The translations under genes were made by a program, and so were the position numbers. From Spirochaetales bacterium (GTDB lineage Bacteria; Spirochaetota; Spirochaetia; DSM-27196; Alkalispirochaetaceae): DNA of 64,000 bases. The DNA is taken from NCBI GenBank assembly GCA_028282545.1, contig JANQHT010000060.1, forward strand, positions 1 through 64,000. The letters run 5' to 3'. This document shows positions 6,855 to 15,681 of this stretch, piece by piece; position 1 is the stretch's first letter, and the number at the start of each line of letters is the position of its first letter. The notes below the pieces were generated by a model that did not search any database, was not told the origin of the DNA, and saw only the letters and a list, made by a program, of their open reading frames with translations.

Positions 6855-7937
6855 ATGAGTACCTTGTCCGTGGAAGCGGTTTCCGTCCGGTTTGGCGATT
6901 TCTACGCAATCCGGGACGTGTCAATCGACGTACACCAGGGGGAGTTCGTCACATTGCTCGGGCCTTCCGGGTGTGGAAAGACCACCCTCCTCAAGGCGAT
7001 ATCCGGGTTCCACGTCCCGGACACAGGAACGATCCACATCGACGGCGTTGACGTTACTACCGTTCCGCCGGAGCGCAGGAACACCACCATGTGCTTCCAA
7101 TCGTACGCCCTGTTTCCCCATCTGAACGTTGCCGAAAACATCGTTTTCGGACTCCGCCAGCAACGAATGGACGGAAACACCCGGAACGAGATCCTGGATC
7201 AGGTGGTCCGCCAGGTAGATTTGGGTACCCAGTTGAAGAAGACCCCCAACCAGCTCTCCGGGGGGCAGCAGCAGCGGGTTGCCCTGGCTCGTGCCCTGGC
7301 TATGCGCTCCGGCATCATCCTCTTCGACGAACCACTATCCAACCTGGACGCCAAACTCAGGGAGCAGGTACGGTTCGAGATGTTGGAGTTGCAGAAGGAA
7401 CACGGCTTCACCGCCATCTACGTTACCCACGATCAGTCGGAAGCGCTGGCGATGAGTGACCGGATCTTCGTCATGGATCAGGGGAATGTAATCCAAAGGG
7501 GAACTCCCTGGGAGATCTACCAGGACCCCGTCAACAGCTTCGTGGCCGAGTTCATCGGCACGGCGAACACGTTTGACGCCCGGGTCCTGGATTCCACCGC
7601 CGCCGGGCGATACCGGATCACTACCGCCATGGGTGAACTCACCGTGGCATCCCCCACGCCCCCGAAAGCGGAAAGAATCAAGGTCTGCTGGCGGCCCGAG
7701 GCGGCACGGCTCACCGAAGCAAGCGGCGAGGACAATACCTTCTCCGCCACCGTAGGTCTCGCGGTGTTCCAGGGCAACCTCACAGACATCCTCATTCACG
7801 AGAACGAGCACGGAAACGATCTCCACCACCGGTCCTATCGACTGCAGATCTTTCAGCACACAAACCTCTCCCGGGGGGACGAGATCACATTCCGAATCGC
7901 TCCCGAGGAGATCCGCTTCCTGGAGGCCGTCCAATGA
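6855..7937 (+). CDS. ABC transporter ATP-binding protein (PotA-like, with TOBE domain)
   Basis: A 360-residue ATPase. Walker [10 protein letters not shown] (residues 36-44), Q-loop [10 protein letters not shown], signature [15 protein letters not shown], Walker [12 protein letters not shown] and switch YVTHDQSEA are all intact, followed by a C-terminal TOBE-type regulatory domain (from about residue 235). This is the architecture of polyamine, iron and phosphonate importers. It is expected to act as a homodimer on the cytoplasmic face of the two permeases encoded next. AGGAGGA (6841-6847) is its ribosome binding site and its stop overlaps the next start (ATGA at 7934). Confidence 0.9.
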
Positions 7938-8797
7938 AGGATTCAGTGAAGCGCTCCATTACCGTTGTCGCCCTGCTCCTACCGGGCCTGGGGCTGATCG
8001 TGGGCTTTGTGGGGATCGTCGTCGTAATGGCGGTGGTCCAATCCCTGGGGTTTTTGAACTTCCTCGGGGAGAGCGGGTTTTCCCTGCATTTCTGGCAGAG
8101 ACAACTGTCAAATTCCACGTTCTGGAAAGCGTTCTTTTATTCGACGCGCATGGCGGTCATCGGAGCGTTCTGCTCAGTGACGATCGCCTACCCTATCGCT
8201 CTGTGGCTGAGGAAACCCTTTCCCGGGTCTCACTTCATCGCGTCGATGATCAAGATTCCCCTCCTCATTCCCGGTCTGGTCGCCGCCTTCCTCTACGTGA
8301 ACCTCATCTCCCATTCGGGCTTTATTAACCATGGACTCATGGCGATGGGCATTATCGAGGAACCGCTCAAGATGCGGAACGACCCCTGGGGCATCGGTGT
8401 CATCATCCTCCAGACCTGGAAGAACATGCCCTTCGCCCTCCTGCTCCTGGCCGGGGCGGTTCGAGCCATCCGGGACGACGTGCTGGACGCCGCCCAGGAT
8501 TTGGGCGCAAACATCTGGGTTCGGTTCCGCAGAGTCGTCGCACCTCTCACGCTGACCTCTCTGCAGGCGGCCCTGGCGATCATTTTCATCGGTGCGGCAG
8601 GGGACTTCTCCTTCCAGGTTATCGCGGGACCAATCAGGCTCAATTCCATGGCCCAGTATATGATGCGGCAGCAGCGGGAACTGGGAAGTTGGAACGACGC
8701 CGCAGTGGTGGGGGTCTCCCTCATGGTCCTTGCTCTCATCGGGTCCGCGGTGGTGGCGATGATCTCGCGAATGATCGTAAAGGCAGGAGAGAAATGA
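7934..8797 (+). CDS. ABC transporter permease (first of pair)
   Basis: A 287-residue inner-membrane permease of the PotB/CysT type with about six hydrophobic segments. The EAA coupling loop is seen as RDDVLDAAQDLGANIWVRFRRV near residues 176-196. It overlaps the ATPase gene and the following permease gene by ATGA junctions, which implies translational coupling and equal amounts. It forms a heterodimeric channel with the next protein. Confidence 0.88.
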   Translation: MKDSVKRSITVVALLLPGLGLIVGFVGIVVVMAVVQSLGFLNFLGESGFSLHFWQRQLSNSTFWKAFFYSTRMAVIGAFCSVTIAYPIALWLRKPFPGSHFIASMIKIPLLIPGLVAAFLYVNLISHSGFINHGLMAMGIIEEPLKMRNDPWGIGVIILQTWKNMPFALLLLAGAVRAIRDDVLDAAQDLGANIWVRFRRVVAPLTLTSLQAALAIIFIGAAGDFSFQVIAGPIRLNSMAQYMMRQQRELGSWNDAAVVGVSLMVLALIGSAVVAMISRMIVKAGEK

Positions 8798-10789: not shown

Positions 10790-11122
10790 ATGAAACTCAT
10801 AGTTTTCGTTCTCAATCGTGAAGAGCTTCTAGAGCGAGTTTTGGAGGCGTATGTCGAGGCAGGCGTCAACGGCGCTACGATTCTCGACTCCGAAGGAATG
10901 GGGCATTTCCTCACCTATGAAGTGCCGTTGTTTGCGGACTTCAAAGAATTCATGAAGGGAAATAAGCCGTATAACAAAACGATCTTGTCGGTTGTGGAAG
11001 ATGACGATTGCATCCACCGTCTCCGTAGTATTCTTGACGAGGTATGCGGTGGACTATCATCTCCAGGGACCGGAATACTGTTTACCGTACCGGTCGATTT
11101 TGCCGTCGGCTTTGTCGGATAG
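10790..11122 (+). CDS. PII-like signalling protein
   Basis: A 110-residue protein with the ferredoxin-like beta-alpha-beta fold pattern of PII-like proteins: MKLIVFVLNREELLERVLEA at the start, a mid loop (EVPLFADFKEFMKGN) in place of the T-loop, and the C-terminal GTGILFTVPVDFAVGF strand that is conserved in this group. It probably forms a trimer that senses a nucleotide or ion and gates a partner protein. It heads the operon of the multisubunit antiporter, so that antiporter is the natural candidate partner (inference). The start at ATG 10790 gives the expected compact domain; an in-frame upstream start (10712) lies before the -10 element. Confidence 0.65.
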   Translation: MKLIVFVLNREELLERVLEAYVEAGVNGATILDSEGMGHFLTYEVPLFADFKEFMKGNKPYNKTILSVVEDDDCIHRLRSILDEVCGGLSSPGTGILFTVPVDFAVGFVG

Positions 11123-11153
11123 ATCAAACCACTGGATCGCAATGGAGGCTCTC

Positions 11154-11618
11154 ATGAGTGATCTCATCTCCGCTATTCTCGATGTTGATGCGGTGTCTCT
11201 CGACATACAAGCGAAGAAGAAGCCTGAAATCATTCGTGAGCTTGTAAACGTGTTGGGGAAAACCGGAACGGTAACCGATGTCGATCGGGTAGCCTCCGAA
11301 GTGATCGCCAGGGAAGAGTTGGCGACGACCGGCATAGGGAACGGCATTGCGATTCCTCACTGCCTCTCGGATTCGGTGACGGGTACCGCTTTGGCCTTCG
11401 GACGGAAAGTGCCCGGTGCGAAGTTTGACGCCGTGGACAAGCAGCCGGTTCAACTCTTTTTTCTGATGGTGGGGCTTCCGGGAACCCACAATGAGCACCT
11501 TCGCCTTTTGAGCAAGCTCTCCCGCTACCTCTACGATCCGGATACCAAAGCCGGCCTTCTTGCGGCCAGGACCCCCCAGGAGGTGGTGGATATCTTTTCC
11601 GGCCGGGAGGGAGTGTAA
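11154..11618 (+). CDS. PTS EIIA (fructose/nitrogen type) domain protein
   Basis: A 154-residue stand-alone EIIA domain of the fructose/PtsN class. GNGIAIPH carries the phospho-accepting His69, preceded by VIAREELATTGIG. No EIIB or EIIC is nearby, so it is more likely regulatory than part of a sugar permease. GGAGG (11144-11148), 5 nt upstream, fixes the start at ATG 11154. Its stop overlaps the MrpE-like start (TAATG), so it is co-translated with the antiporter; a role in setting ion transport according to phosphorylation state is plausible, as PtsN proteins affect K+ transport in other bacteria. Confidence 0.85.
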   Translation: MSDLISAILDVDAVSLDIQAKKKPEIIRELVNVLGKTGTVTDVDRVASEVIAREELATTGIGNGIAIPHCLSDSVTGTALAFGRKVPGAKFDAVDKQPVQLFFLMVGLPGTHNEHLRLLSKLSRYLYDPDTKAGLLAARTPQEVVDIFSGREGV

Positions 11619-12130
11619 TGGCGTCCAGCACTCATTGGAACGTCGTCCGTTTCTTCGTTACCACTCTCTACCTCTGGATGGGTTGGATTCTCTTCACGTG
11701 GTCTCTTTCCTTGGGCAACCTCCTTTTGGGATTGGTCCAAAGCGGCCTGGTGGCGCTGTTCACCTGGCCGGTGTTTGTTGAAGAGAATGAAGCCGCCCGC
11801 CGATCACACGTTCCCCGGGTTCATTTTCTCATCGTTTACCTGTTGTTCCTGATCGTTCAGATGTACGGCGCGAGTTTTCGGGTCTTGTGGCAAATCCTGC
11901 GGGGCCGGATCAATCCCGGGGTGGTGCATTTTCGGACCCGCCTCAGAACCGATATCGCCAGAACGGCCTTGGCCAATTCAATTACCCTGACTCCCGGAAC
12001 GATTACCCTGTTTCTCGATGACGATCATCTCATCGTCCATTGGCTCGACTCCCGAACGACCCATTCGAGGTACGCGCGCAAATTGATCGCCGAATCGTTT
12101 GAAAGAGTGCTCAAACGGATTTGGGCATAG
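11618..12130 (+). CDS. mnhE: Na+/H+ antiporter subunit E (MnhE/MrpE, MbhA-like)
   Basis: A 170-residue membrane protein with two to three N-terminal hydrophobic segments, then a soluble tail with the MrpE pattern RTDIARTALANSITLTPGT. It is the first of eight consecutive subunits of a multisubunit cation/proton antiporter in the cytoplasmic membrane. The start overlaps the EIIA stop codon. Confidence 0.85.
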   Translation: MASSTHWNVVRFFVTTLYLWMGWILFTWSLSLGNLLLGLVQSGLVALFTWPVFVEENEAARRSHVPRVHFLIVYLLFLIVQMYGASFRVLWQILRGRINPGVVHFRTRLRTDIARTALANSITLTPGTITLFLDDDHLIVHWLDSRTTHSRYARKLIAESFERVLKRIWA

Positions 12131-12141
12131 CGGGATGAGTC

Positions 12142-12402
12142 ATGGACCAGCTACTGCAATACGCCTTGTGGTTCTTCCTAGGATCGATTCTGGTTAGTAT
12201 GGTTCGGGTTCTGGTCGGCCCAACCACCGCGGACCGGATGATCGGTCTCAACATGGTGTCGGCCCAGATCCTTGCGATTCTGGTGCTCCTGGCCGTCAGG
12301 GAGGAGCGAAGCAGCTTCCTCGATGTGGCACTGGTGTACGACATCTTCGGTTTTATTGGAATCTTGGCCATGGTTCGGTATTTCGGGAGGAAGCGGGGAT
12401 GA
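12142..12402 (+). CDS. mnhF: Na+/H+ antiporter subunit F (MnhF/MrpF, MbhB-like)
   Basis: An 86-residue protein with three transmembrane segments and the MrpF signature RVLVGPTTADRMIGLNMV plus the conserved FLDVALVYDIFGF near the C-terminus. It overlaps the next gene by ATGA (12399-12402). Confidence 0.85.
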   Translation: MDQLLQYALWFFLGSILVSMVRVLVGPTTADRMIGLNMVSAQILAILVLLAVREERSSFLDVALVYDIFGFIGILAMVRYFGRKRG

Positions 12403-12731
12403 ACTGGGGAACGGTTATCTTTATCGGTTTGGGGGTGATCTTCGGCATCATGGGCAATTTGGGTGTGCTGATCTTTCCCGACGTCTACACCCGACTCCAC
12501 GCATCATCCACGGCGAGCACCTCATCGGTTTTCTCGATTTTCGTCGCCTGTATGTTTGCCGCCGGGTGGAGCCCGATGACCGGAAAAATCCTGGTGATCG
12601 CCTTCTTTTTCTTTATTACCAACCCCATCTCCTCCCATCTCATTGCACGTTACGCCTGGGAGAAAGACGTGGTGCCCTGGCGGCGGAGTTACGCCGAACG
12701 ACAGAGACTGTCCCATACGTCCGATGAATGA
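12399..12731 (+). CDS. mnhG: Na+/H+ antiporter subunit G (MnhG/MrpG, MbhC-like)
   Basis: A 110-residue protein with three membrane spans and the MrpG motif GVLIFPDVYTRLHASSTAST, followed by NPISSHLIARYAW. Overlapping junctions at both ends mean it belongs to the same translation-coupled unit. Confidence 0.85.
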   Translation: MNWGTVIFIGLGVIFGIMGNLGVLIFPDVYTRLHASSTASTSSVFSIFVACMFAAGWSPMTGKILVIAFFFFITNPISSHLIARYAWEKDVVPWRRSYAERQRLSHTSDE

Positions 12732-12969
12732 GTCACTCCTGGTCGTCTTGTCCGTGCTGGCCGCTCTCTCCCTGGCCGCCCGGGACCTTCTTACCTCGGT
12801 GATTTTGGTGAGTGTGTTTAGTCTGGTAAGTTGTTTGTTCTTCTTCGTATTGGGTGCTCCGGATGTGGCCCTGACCGAGGCCGCCGTGGGAACCGGGGTG
12901 GGGAGCATCGTATTCATCTGGATCGTCCACAAAATCCGGAGAAGGGAACGCAGTGATGCGGATAGTTGA
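12724..12969 (+). CDS. MbhD-like subunit (MrpA C-terminal fragment, DUF4040)
   Basis: An 81-residue protein with three hydrophobic stretches and the DUF4040 motif FFFVLGAPDVALTEAAVGTG. It corresponds to one piece of the C-terminal extension of MrpA, here a separate gene as in archaeal mbhD. The start at ATG 12724 overlaps the previous gene by 8 nt. Confidence 0.75.
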   Translation: MNESLLVVLSVLAALSLAARDLLTSVILVSVFSLVSCLFFFVLGAPDVALTEAAVGTGVGSIVFIWIVHKIRRRERSDADS

Positions 12970-13204
12970 AATTGTGGCCATGGTCACCGTTGCCCTTTTT
13001 CTTGCGTTGATTCTGGGCGGTTCTCATCCGACGGAAACGCCCCTGCGGGGTCATGTGGTGGAAAACGGCGTCGCCGAGACCGGGGCGGTCAACTTGGTTA
13101 CCGCCATTTACCTCGGCTATCGCGCCTTTGACACCTTGGGAGAGACCGTCGTGTTGATGCTGGCCGTCTCCGGGGTGATCTTCTTTGTGGAGCAGCGCCG
13201 GTAA
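12956..13204 (+). CDS. MbhE-like subunit (MrpA C-terminal fragment)
   Basis: An 82-residue protein with two membrane spans and the motif ETGAVNLVTAIYLGYRAFDT, then ETVVLMLAVSGVIFF, as in MbhE and the end of MrpA. A GTG at 12953 is an alternative start. It overlaps both neighbours. Confidence 0.72.
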   Translation: MRIVEIVAMVTVALFLALILGGSHPTETPLRGHVVENGVAETGAVNLVTAIYLGYRAFDTLGETVVLMLAVSGVIFFVEQRR

Positions 13205-13623
13205 TGGCTAAGACCGATATACTCGACGTCGTTGCCCGGAAACTCGCTCCTTTTATGCTTCTCTTCGGGCTCTATTTGGTAAGCTACGGCGATACCTCTC
13301 CCGGCGGGGGATTCCAGGGCGGGGTTGTGATTGCCTCCGGGGTGATCCTCCTTGCCATGGCCCGGGGCGTCTCCGCCGCGGAGCGGCTTTTCCCTATGCA
13401 CCGTTTATCCGCGGCTGAAACCGCGGCCTACGGCGTTTTTCTGGCAGCGGGAGTCGTCGGTTTGGTACTGGGCGTCGGCTTTCTCGGCGATTTCACCAGA
13501 CCCGGTTGGACAAACAGCCCGCTGCCGGCCGCCCGGTTCATCTTTCTTCTCAATCTTGCCATCGGTATCAAGGTAGCATGCGGAGTGAGTCTGATCTGCA
13601 TGTACCTGTTTCGGGAGGACTGA
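13204..13623 (+). CDS. mnhB: Na+/H+ antiporter subunit B (MnhB/MrpB, MbhF-like)
   Basis: A 139-residue protein with four membrane spans and the MrpB signature YGDTSPGGGFQGGVVIASGV. Its start shares a base with the previous stop (TAATG). Confidence 0.85.
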   Translation: MAKTDILDVVARKLAPFMLLFGLYLVSYGDTSPGGGFQGGVVIASGVILLAMARGVSAAERLFPMHRLSAAETAAYGVFLAAGVVGLVLGVGFLGDFTRPGWTNSPLPAARFIFLLNLAIGIKVACGVSLICMYLFRED

Positions 13624-13625
13624 GA

Positions 13626-13964
13626 ATGACCTGGTATCTGATCGGCGCGATCTTTCTTCTCGGCTTGTGGGGGGTAATAGGGCTGAAGAACCTGGTGAAA
13701 CAGGTGATCGCCTTGAGTATCGCCAACAGCGCGATCATCATGCTTTTTGTTTATTACGCCTCTCTGTCGGGCGAAGATGCCCCAATCATGGATACCGCCG
13801 GAATTCCCGTAGATCCGATTCCCCATGCGCTGATGCTCACGGCCATAGTTGTAGGTATCTGCATTGTCGCCCTCGCCCTGGCTTTGGTCTACGTCCTCTA
13901 TCAGCGATACGGAACCTTGAACATGGACGAACTGGAAGACCGGATTTGGAAAGCGGATGACTGA
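13626..13964 (+). CDS. mnhC: Na+/H+ antiporter subunit C (MnhC/MrpC, NuoK-like; MbhG-like)
   Basis: A 112-residue, three-span NuoK-like protein. The motif GLKNLVKQVIALSIANSAI and DPIPHALMLTAIVVGIC are conserved in MrpC. The start at ATG 13626 is chosen by family length; the frame is open upstream inside mnhB. It overlaps mnhD by 8 nt. Confidence 0.85.
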   Translation: MTWYLIGAIFLLGLWGVIGLKNLVKQVIALSIANSAIIMLFVYYASLSGEDAPIMDTAGIPVDPIPHALMLTAIVVGICIVALALALVYVLYQRYGTLNMDELEDRIWKADD

Positions 13965-15681
13965 ACCCGTACTCCTGATACTTTTTCCTTTGGCAGGTTC
14001 TCTTTTCTCACTCCTGGGAAAGCTTGTACCGGCCAAGAGAGTATGTACCGCACTCGCCCTTTCCATCTTTGCGGCCATGGCAGTGGTCCTCTTCCTCCAG
14101 CTTCCCCTGGTATTGAACGGGGAGAACCTCACGTACGCCCTAGGAGGATTTGTTCGAGAACCTGGAATCTCTCTGATCCTTGACGGGCCGGCGTGGCTCG
14201 CCTCGGCGCTCATCGTACTCATTTCTCTCATGGTGGCAATCTACTCGTTGGACCGGCCGGAGTTCGACCTCCGCTACTTTTTTTTCCTGCTGATGCTGGT
14301 GGCCGGTATGGAAGCGGTGGTCCTCACCGGCGACATCTTCACCATGTTCGTCAGTCTCGAAATTATCGCCATTGCGGCGTACGTTCTTATTGCCTGGGAG
14401 AAGAGCGATGAAGGTCTGCTCGCCAGCCTGAAATATCTCTTTCTCAGCTCGGTCGGAATTCTCTTTTTCCTTCTTGGGGTGTTCATTGTCTATCGCGACC
14501 TCGGCACCCTCTCATTTGCGGTTATCGCCGAACGGATAGCCGAGTTGAAAACCGATCCTGTCGTTCTAGGCGCTCTTTCCGGGGAAAACCGGTTCCCTGA
14601 AAAGATCGGTTCGATTCTCCAGGGGTACCCCGGACGCTCCATCAACTTCGCCCTTGCGGCTCTATGTGTGGGAATAGGCGTTCGAACGGCGTTCATCCCG
14701 TTCCACACCTGGCTTCCCGAAGCTCACGCCTGGGCGCCCCACCCGGTCTCGGCCCTCCTCTCCGGAGTACTGATCAAAACATCGTTCTTCGCCCTCTTTC
14801 GGATACTCGCCGTTTTCCACGCCTTTCATATGCATTCGATGCTGATGTGGCTCGGTTCAATAACCGCTCTTGTCGCCGTAGGATGGGCTCTGGCCCAAAG
14901 TGACTCCAAACGTCTTCTGGCGTATCACTCCATTTCCCAGATGGGGTATATACTCGCCGCCGCCGGAGCGGCTTCCGTCTTCTCCGTTCCCGCCGCCTAC
15001 ACCCACGCAATCAATCACGCTCTATTCAAAGGTCTTCTCTTTCTCGCCATCGGCCATGCCATCCATATGGTCGGTGAACGAAACCTCTTTCGAATAGGCC
15101 CCTTGGGACGCCGTTCTCCTCTGATCGCCCTCGCCCTGTTATTCGGAGCTCTTTCCATTTCCGGAATACCGCCGTTCAACGGCTTTGTCAGCAAACAGCT
15201 TATCTCCCATGCCTTGGACGGATCACCCGCCTACATCCTCTTGTGGCTCACCGCGGTGGGCACCACTGCGTCGTTTATCAAACTGTCGAGGATTGCACTG
15301 CCCGGGCCGAAGGACATCTCCGGTTTTCGACGACACGATTCCAACCACCGCCACTCCGCGGCAACCGTCATCCCTCTCGTGATTCTGAGCGTTCTGGTTC
15401 TTCTCTCCGGGGTATACGGGGCGGGCTATACCCGGTTTGTATGGCGTCTCGTGGGTGACCCCTCCGTCACGGCAGTGGAATTTCCGGCTCTTTTCAAAGT
15501 GGATAAGTTTACCGACAGTCTCATCATCCTTCTTCTCGGCATCGCCCTCTATTTCCTTGTGATGAGCCCCGTCGGAAAACGAGTTGCGAAACGGGTGAGT
15601 GGAGTCGCTCCCAAACTGGGAACCGTGCTTACCTTTTTCGTTTTCGGCCTCGCCCTTTTTTCTATTGCCGCGTGGCGGTAA
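13957..15681 (+). CDS. mnhD: Na+/H+ antiporter subunit D (MnhD/MrpD, NuoN/NuoL-like; MbhH-like)
   Basis: A 574-residue, about 14-span proton-pumping subunit. The conserved glutamate is in FVSLEIIAIAAYVLI and the channel motif is WLPEAHAWAPHPVSALLSG, with the lysine of GVLIKTS. It is the only large pumping subunit in the operon, since a full MrpA is absent. It is the last gene; a dyad (15697-15719) follows. Confidence 0.9.
   Translation: MTEPVLLILFPLAGSLFSLLGKLVPAKRVCTALALSIFAAMAVVLFLQLPLVLNGENLTYALGGFVREPGISLILDGPAWLASALIVLISLMVAIYSLDRPEFDLRYFFFLLMLVAGMEAVVLTGDIFTMFVSLEIIAIAAYVLIAWEKSDEGLLASLKYLFLSSVGILFFLLGVFIVYRDLGTLSFAVIAERIAELKTDPVVLGALSGENRFPEKIGSILQGYPGRSINFALAALCVGIGVRTAFIPFHTWLPEAHAWAPHPVSALLSGVLIKTSFFALFRILAVFHAFHMHSMLMWLGSITALVAVGWALAQSDSKRLLAYHSISQMGYILAAAGAASVFSVPAAYTHAINHALFKGLLFLAIGHAIHMVGERNLFRIGPLGRRSPLIALALLFGALSISGIPPFNGFVSKQLISHALDGSPAYILLWLTAVGTTASFIKLSRIALPGPKDISGFRRHDSNHRHSAATVIPLVILSVLVLLSGVYGAGYTRFVWRLVGDPSVTAVEFPALFKVDKFTDSLIILLLGIALYFLVMSPVGKRVAKRVSGVAPKLGTVLTFFVFGLALFSIAAWR

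Follow-up and report, generated by a model that had tools for sequence, protein, structure and literature searches.

The plus strand of a 64,000-nucleotide stretch of a Spirochaetales bacterium genome (contig JANQHT010000060.1; the whole stretch is referred to here as the window) carries a compact cluster of ten open reading frames (ORFs) at positions 10790-15681, each of which overlaps or nearly touches its predecessor. The first two encode a PII-like protein of 110 amino acids (10790..11122; PF00543, E 3.2e-5) and an enzyme IIA (EIIA) of the phosphotransferase system (PTS), fructose/Ntr type (11154..11618; PF00359, E 1.2e-32). They are followed by MrpE (MbhA-like, 11618..12130; PF01899, MNHE, E 1.5e-34), MrpF (MbhB-like, 12142..12402; PF04066, MrpF_PhaF, E 2.4e-16), MrpG (MbhC-like, 12399..12731; PF03334, PhaG_MnhG, E 6.4e-23), two MrpA C-terminal pieces, namely MbhD-like (piece 1, 12724..12969; PF13244, E 9.6e-19) and MbhE-like (piece 2, 12953..13204; PF20501, E 3e-7), MrpB (MbhF-like, 13204..13623; PF04039, MnhB, E 1e-24), MrpC (MbhG-like, 13626..13964; PF00420, Oxidored_q2, E 9.3e-22) and MrpD (MbhH-like, 13957..15681; PF00361, Proton_antipo_M, E 4.6e-59), the sole antiporter-like subunit. 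An earlier sequence-only reading had recognised eight membrane subunits in mbhA-H order with split MrpA C-terminal pieces, and these Pfam matches agree with it. It had also described an overlap of the EIIA gene with mnhE, which amounts to one base, as the EIIA stop codon (TAA, 11616-11618) ends on the first base of the MrpE ATG at 11618. EIIA translation is likely to start at ATG 11154, with GGAGG 5 nt upstream; 11142 is an alternative start.

The eight membrane genes represent an established type, the stand-alone group-3 Mrp antiporter that has no NuoL-like MrpA: MrpB, C, D, E, F and G are present together with the MbhD- and MbhE-like pieces. Such an Mrp without MrpA is not unusual, being the recognised group-3 form; Pyrococcus furiosus possesses a stand-alone mrpEFGBB'CD whose driving force is unknown (PMC8415708). 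The previously claimed lack of a NuoL-like MrpA was borne out in the window's own genome (G000; assembly of 4.28 Mb, 165 contigs, 86% complete), where PF00361 occurs at only three places: one is the MrpD of the cluster, and the other two belong to another Mrp cluster, on contig C51. This leaves no NuoL-like MrpA for the cluster studied here. The C51 cluster (locus L083:3214-8693, minus strand) is without PII or EIIA, and its two antiporter-like subunits apparently lie in one open frame of 1,144 amino acids, a natural D-D fusion. Likewise, no hydrogenase gene adjoins the cluster among the window ORFs and locus flanks, as had been read from the sequence (the rest of the genome was not searched for hydrogenases). 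The MBH complex matches the window cluster in the order and identity of its eight membrane genes mbhA-H, but has a hydrogenase module, MbhI-N, that we did not find in the cluster or its flanks. The P. furiosus Mrp operon is like the window cluster in subunits and order, in having a single MrpD, and in having neither MrpA nor hydrogenase (PMC8415708). However, its MbhD and MbhE are fused rather than encoded by separate genes, and the operon as described (Pf1147-53) contains no PII or EIIA gene (PMC8415708).

The best match of the window MrpD in the PDB was 6cfw_H (MbhH). It retains E135, K274, H354, K358 and K413, and has Arg243 at the position of the lysine in transmembrane helix (TM) 7. Within its clade, the residues thought to transfer protons are kept almost without exception (Glu in TM5, 72/72; Lys in TM8, 71/72; His and Lys in TM11, 72/72; Lys in TM12, 72/72). 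The TM7 lysine differs: it is Arg in 68 of 72 members, unlike in P. furiosus Mrp, and mostly Lys in other Mrp, which points to a possible change in proton coupling. The cluster is predicted to encode a monovalent cation/H+ antiporter, presumably for Na+ or K+.

The new element is the pair of genes in front of this antiporter. The PII-like protein scored 24.6 bits against PF00543, just below the cut-off of 25, and a relative (locus L100) reached 33.8. The topology of its AlphaFold2 model (pLDDT 79) is that of PII, the T-loop (residues ∼36-58) being modelled with low confidence; all of the 50 best PDB matches of the model were PII or GlnK proteins (Foldseek, E 9e-6). The protein is 84-88% identical in the nearest relatives, and its mean pairwise identity of 71% is the highest in the operon, the other nine proteins ranging from 36 to 54%. 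Invariant stretches surround DSEG, VPLFA.F and MKGNKPYNKT, and 16 of the 24 invariant columns fall in residues 30-65, around the T-loop. Canonical PII proteins are marked by the B-loop GDG[KR] and a C-loop Arg, which belong to the ATP/2-oxoglutarate site, and by the uridylylation motif YRGAEY. In our PII alignments GDG[KR] was not found, PGTG[IV] standing in its place (PGTGI for GDGRI), and YRGAEY was not found in the T-loop; the PF00543 match of the window protein does not reach the C-loop, ending at profile position 93 of 102. The nucleotide sensing that the sequence-only reading had assigned to this protein is therefore unsupported, because the canonical ATP and 2-oxoglutarate features are missing, and sensing through the canonical residues was rejected.

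The EIIA carries its phospho-acceptor histidine within GIAIPH (codon 11358-11360). It scored as fructose type (TIGR00848, 105.8 bits versus a cut-off of 103.5) and not as the PtsN (EIIANtr) equivalog (TIGR01419, 66.5 bits versus a curated cut-off of 138.7). The histidine is kept in 110 of 111 EIIA proteins of the cluster type, and in all 28 aligned EIIA-PII fusions linked to antiporters of the cation/proton antiporter (CPA) type (see below). The upstream chain is available as well: the HPr and EI families are each found at seven places in G000, and both proteins are present in 16/16 genomes tested. Even the L100 genome, which has no EIIA in the operon, encodes two EIIA genes elsewhere. One might suppose that both small proteins belong to the complex permanently, as constitutive cytosolic subunits with an accessory or assembly role, and that EIIA phosphorylation is vestigial. 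The tight operon, the highly conserved PII and the degenerate EIIA of a second Mrp type (MrpII; motif GFALIH, 29-40 bits) would fit such a role, but the retention of the phospho-histidine in cluster EIIAs and CPA-linked fusions does not, and no such subunits appear in the Mrp, MBH and MBS subunit table of PMC8415708; we regard this explanation as improbable.

To find relatives, we scanned genome contigs with the PII alignment and obtained 80 loci (81 with the window), mostly from Spirochaetota, the others coming from Aerophobetes, Fermentibacteria/Aegiribacteria, bacterium UASB270 and one Deltaproteobacteria bin. All ten genes occur in order in 57 of the 81 loci, so the arrangement that the sequence-only reading had singled out for a survey does recur. 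Where at least 5.5 kb follow the PII gene, 46 of 53 loci hold the complete order; the remaining seven comprise two without a stand-alone EIIA (L093 and L100, the only such cases among the named loci), four orphan PII-EIIA pairs, and the closest relative, L085, which is without MrpD and lies on a contig of a binned metagenome. Six ten-gene clusters (L102, L105, L140, L141, L144 and L147) have a second tandem MrpD.

The converse test, which carries more weight, started from the antiporter. Among 297 genomes of the class, MrpE of the window's clade (defined as scoring over 120 bits) was present in 56, and in 54 of these the same strand carried a PII gene 477-546 bp upstream, which leaves room for a single EIIA gene. 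In the other two genomes (G427 and G402) both genes are present on separate contigs cut at their ends; a loss of PII in antiporter relatives was accordingly rejected, both apparent cases being contig ends. Relatives that keep the antiporter without the PII gene, which the sequence-only reading had named as evidence against it, were thus not found among the 56, allowing for two contig breaks. The per-genome counts (both genes, 57; MrpE only, 0; PII only, 4; neither, 236) gave a Fisher p of ∼1e-56, uncorrected for relatedness; this table was assembled by hand from the hit lists, the 57th genome being G433, where a contig end carries a fragment of MrpE beside PII. The PII-MrpE linkage agreed in 10/10 cases of a wider phylum sample and in 3/3 from Fermentibacterota. 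More distant Mrp clusters are mostly without the pair.

The linkage does not extend beyond the ten genes. No other family was recurrent in the flanks: the most frequent one occurs at nine loci, on either strand and on either side. The unit therefore ends with the ten genes, and a wider conserved operon was rejected. The same survey bears on the idea that the pair controls expression of the operon instead of transporter activity, for example by titrating a transcription factor or a sensor kinase. E. coli PtsN does act on the sensor kinase KdpD as well (PMC13104625), yet neither the PII-like protein nor the EIIA has a DNA-binding domain recognised by Pfam and no regulator gene recurs in the flanks, which makes expression control highly unlikely.

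In the distant matches of the PII scan, the matching part proved to be the C-terminal domain of an EIIA-PII fusion protein. In G000 itself, a PF00999 antiporter gene is directly followed by an EIIA-PII fusion gene (C140:6032-8184, fusion at 7363-8184; locus L190), whose product is a paralogue of the window's PII-EIIA pair. Across Spirochaetota, such fusions adjoin a Na_H_Exchanger (PF00999) gene in 13 loci (L190-L198 and L202-L205), and in Fermentibacterota they stand beside a PF00999 antiporter in 16 of 17 loci, the exception being a short locus. These antiporters were called by Pfam in six cases and in the others by a profile built from our own antiporters; the CPA proteins that we scanned contain the PF00999 domain only, with no Pfam regulatory domain. 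At L195 a separate CBS protein is encoded between antiporter and fusion, and at two loci helix-turn-helix (HTH) proteins of the form HTH_17-EIIA (L198:9018-9740 and L202:5331-6050) adjoin the fusion and the CPA antiporter. In the second Mrp type (L257-L262), EIIA-PII is inserted between MbhD and MrpB in four loci and PII alone in two. The opposite fusion order exists too: at L098, a single fusion protein, PII followed by EIIA, is encoded immediately ahead of MrpE. A further arrangement is found at L093, where a membrane protein with a C-terminal EIIA domain (L093:13757-15586) comes right after the PII-Mrp operon that has no stand-alone EIIA; the protein is CPA-like by our own profile and was not called by Pfam. 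In a PII tree the groups are separate, the six MrpII proteins forming one supported clade, and the CPA-linked proteins need at least three label changes; the tree is limited by its 106 columns and long branches.

A chance or clade-only linkage was rejected on the basis of these counts together with the linkage to a second antiporter superfamily. For the same reason it is very hard to credit that PII and EIIA form a PTS signalling unit with no relation to the antiporter, which came under a common promoter with mrp on one occasion and has been co-inherited since. Sampled members come mostly from one phylum and the counts are thus not independent, but the pair has been linked separately before MrpE, at a different position inside a second Mrp operon, and fused beside a non-homologous CPA family, with two opposite fusion orders, and it also occurs in Fermentibacterota, Aerophobetes and bacterium UASB270.

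We therefore consider it probable that the PII-like protein and EIIA directly regulate the activity of the antiporter, an idea strengthened by the EIIA-PII fusions and the CPA linkage. In the mechanism we propose, a stand-alone group-3 Mrp would come with a cytosolic regulatory module of its own, in which a divergent PII-like protein is combined with an EIIA phosphoprotein. The EIIA histidine would receive its phosphate from phosphoenolpyruvate (PEP) through EI and HPr, so that EIIA phosphorylation would track PEP and the energy state; the PII-like protein would work with EIIA through its conserved T-loop and sense a second ligand; and the two would bind the antiporter on its cytoplasmic side, opening or closing it. 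Closing would most likely occur when EIIA is unphosphorylated, a polarity that we propose only tentatively, by analogy. A metabolic gate would be physiologically sensible, given that gradients could be dissipated by an Mrp that has no energy-input module. More broadly, and with confidence only a little better than even, we suggest that PII plus EIIA constitutes a dedicated cation/proton antiporter module that was attached several times, as separate or fused proteins and in both orders, to Mrp with its many subunits and to the unrelated PF00999 family of single-subunit antiporters, in Spirochaetota, Fermentibacterota, Aerophobetes and bacterium UASB270, and that it integrates PEP-dependent phosphorylation with a second, PII-read ligand after loss of the canonical nucleotide motifs.

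Both halves of this proposal have precedents. The E. coli EIIA protein PtsN, when unphosphorylated, binds to the K+/H+ antiporter YcgO and inhibits it; once phosphorylated, it binds less tightly (PMC11808508). This control of a cation/proton antiporter by phosphorylation-dependent binding serves only as a model for the window: PtsN-YcgO has no PII partner, the window EIIA is not of the PtsN equivalog type, and YcgO, a CPA1 protein, has a cytoplasmic RCK/CorC region of its own, whereas the partners here are Mrp or PF00999-only CPA proteins. The PII-family proteins SbtB and GlnK shut transporters through direct binding, and as in the window, GlnK-AmtB and SbtB-SbtA pair a small PII-fold protein with a membrane transporter encoded together with it (PMC10710835). 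The T-loop is a likely contact in these systems as in the window, and SbtB acts with AMP; the window PII differs in lacking the canonical nucleotide motifs and in having EIIA as a partner. The T-loops of the Mrp-linked and CPA-linked PII groups have a P-hydrophobic-F-A motif in common. Because Mrp and CPA antiporters are unrelated while EIIA is common to both, the T-loop may contact EIIA instead of a membrane protein.

Several observations weigh against direct control. EIIA sequences vary widely (mean identity 36%). Orphan PII-EIIA pairs with no adjacent antiporter occur at L137, L150, L155, L156 and L161, and further ones at L269-L273, L200, L201 and L206. L100 has PII and Mrp without a nearby EIIA, and L199 has PII and CPA without EIIA, which speaks against a strict T-loop-EIIA rule. 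The directly regulated PII targets, as with GlnK and SbtB, are mostly trimeric transporters (PMC10710835), and Mrp is not known as a trimer. Finally, genes may share an operon for the sake of assembly or co-expression as well. The orphan pairs, together with the HTH-EIIA proteins beside the fusions at L198 and L202 and in L155, would also suit the reverse direction, in which PII and EIIA are outputs: the pair would be altered by the antiporter, or by the local ionic conditions or pH, and would in turn signal to the PTS or to transcription elsewhere; E. coli EIIANtr, moreover, acts on KdpD too (PMC13104625). However, direct control explains the strict antiporter linkage and the fusions at least equally well, and the PtsN-YcgO precedent runs from EIIA to the antiporter, so that we think the reverse direction unlikely.

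A switch tying ion exchange to the metabolic state of the cell is apparently undescribed. Open-access full texts (subscription papers and preprints were outside the scope) included no paper on PII with Mrp or CPA antiporters or on EIIA-PII fusions, and the text of a PTSNtr review (PMC13104625) and of an Mrp review (PMC5703873) does not mention PII. What powers an Mrp that has neither MrpA nor a redox module, and what prevents its wasteful operation, still has to be explained; its driving force is given as unknown in PMC8415708. If direct control is correct, a PTS/PII switch would make Na+ or K+ exchange depend on PEP and the metabolic state, PII control would extend to multi-subunit antiporters, and many poorly annotated 'PTS IIA' and 'P-II' genes would gain functions. 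Cultured carriers exist (Alkalispirochaeta alkalica, Sphaerochaeta halotolerans and Breznakiella homolactica), which makes the switch idea directly testable.

Some minor features of the loci complete the picture. A promoter scan gave no match above shuffles. The window cluster is preceded by an ABC transporter and a GlpQ-like gene, and followed, on the opposite strand, by an IolB-like gene, all recognised by eye. At L155 (9001-18168) the orphan PII-EIIA pair is followed by an HTH-EIIA gene, three NuoL/M-like genes and a NuoH-like gene, the Nuo-like genes looking like a hydrogenase-4 type module. Unfused EIIA/PII pairs with no adjoining antiporter are found near fatty-acid synthesis genes at L272 and L273, and near RND/TRAP transporter genes at L270.

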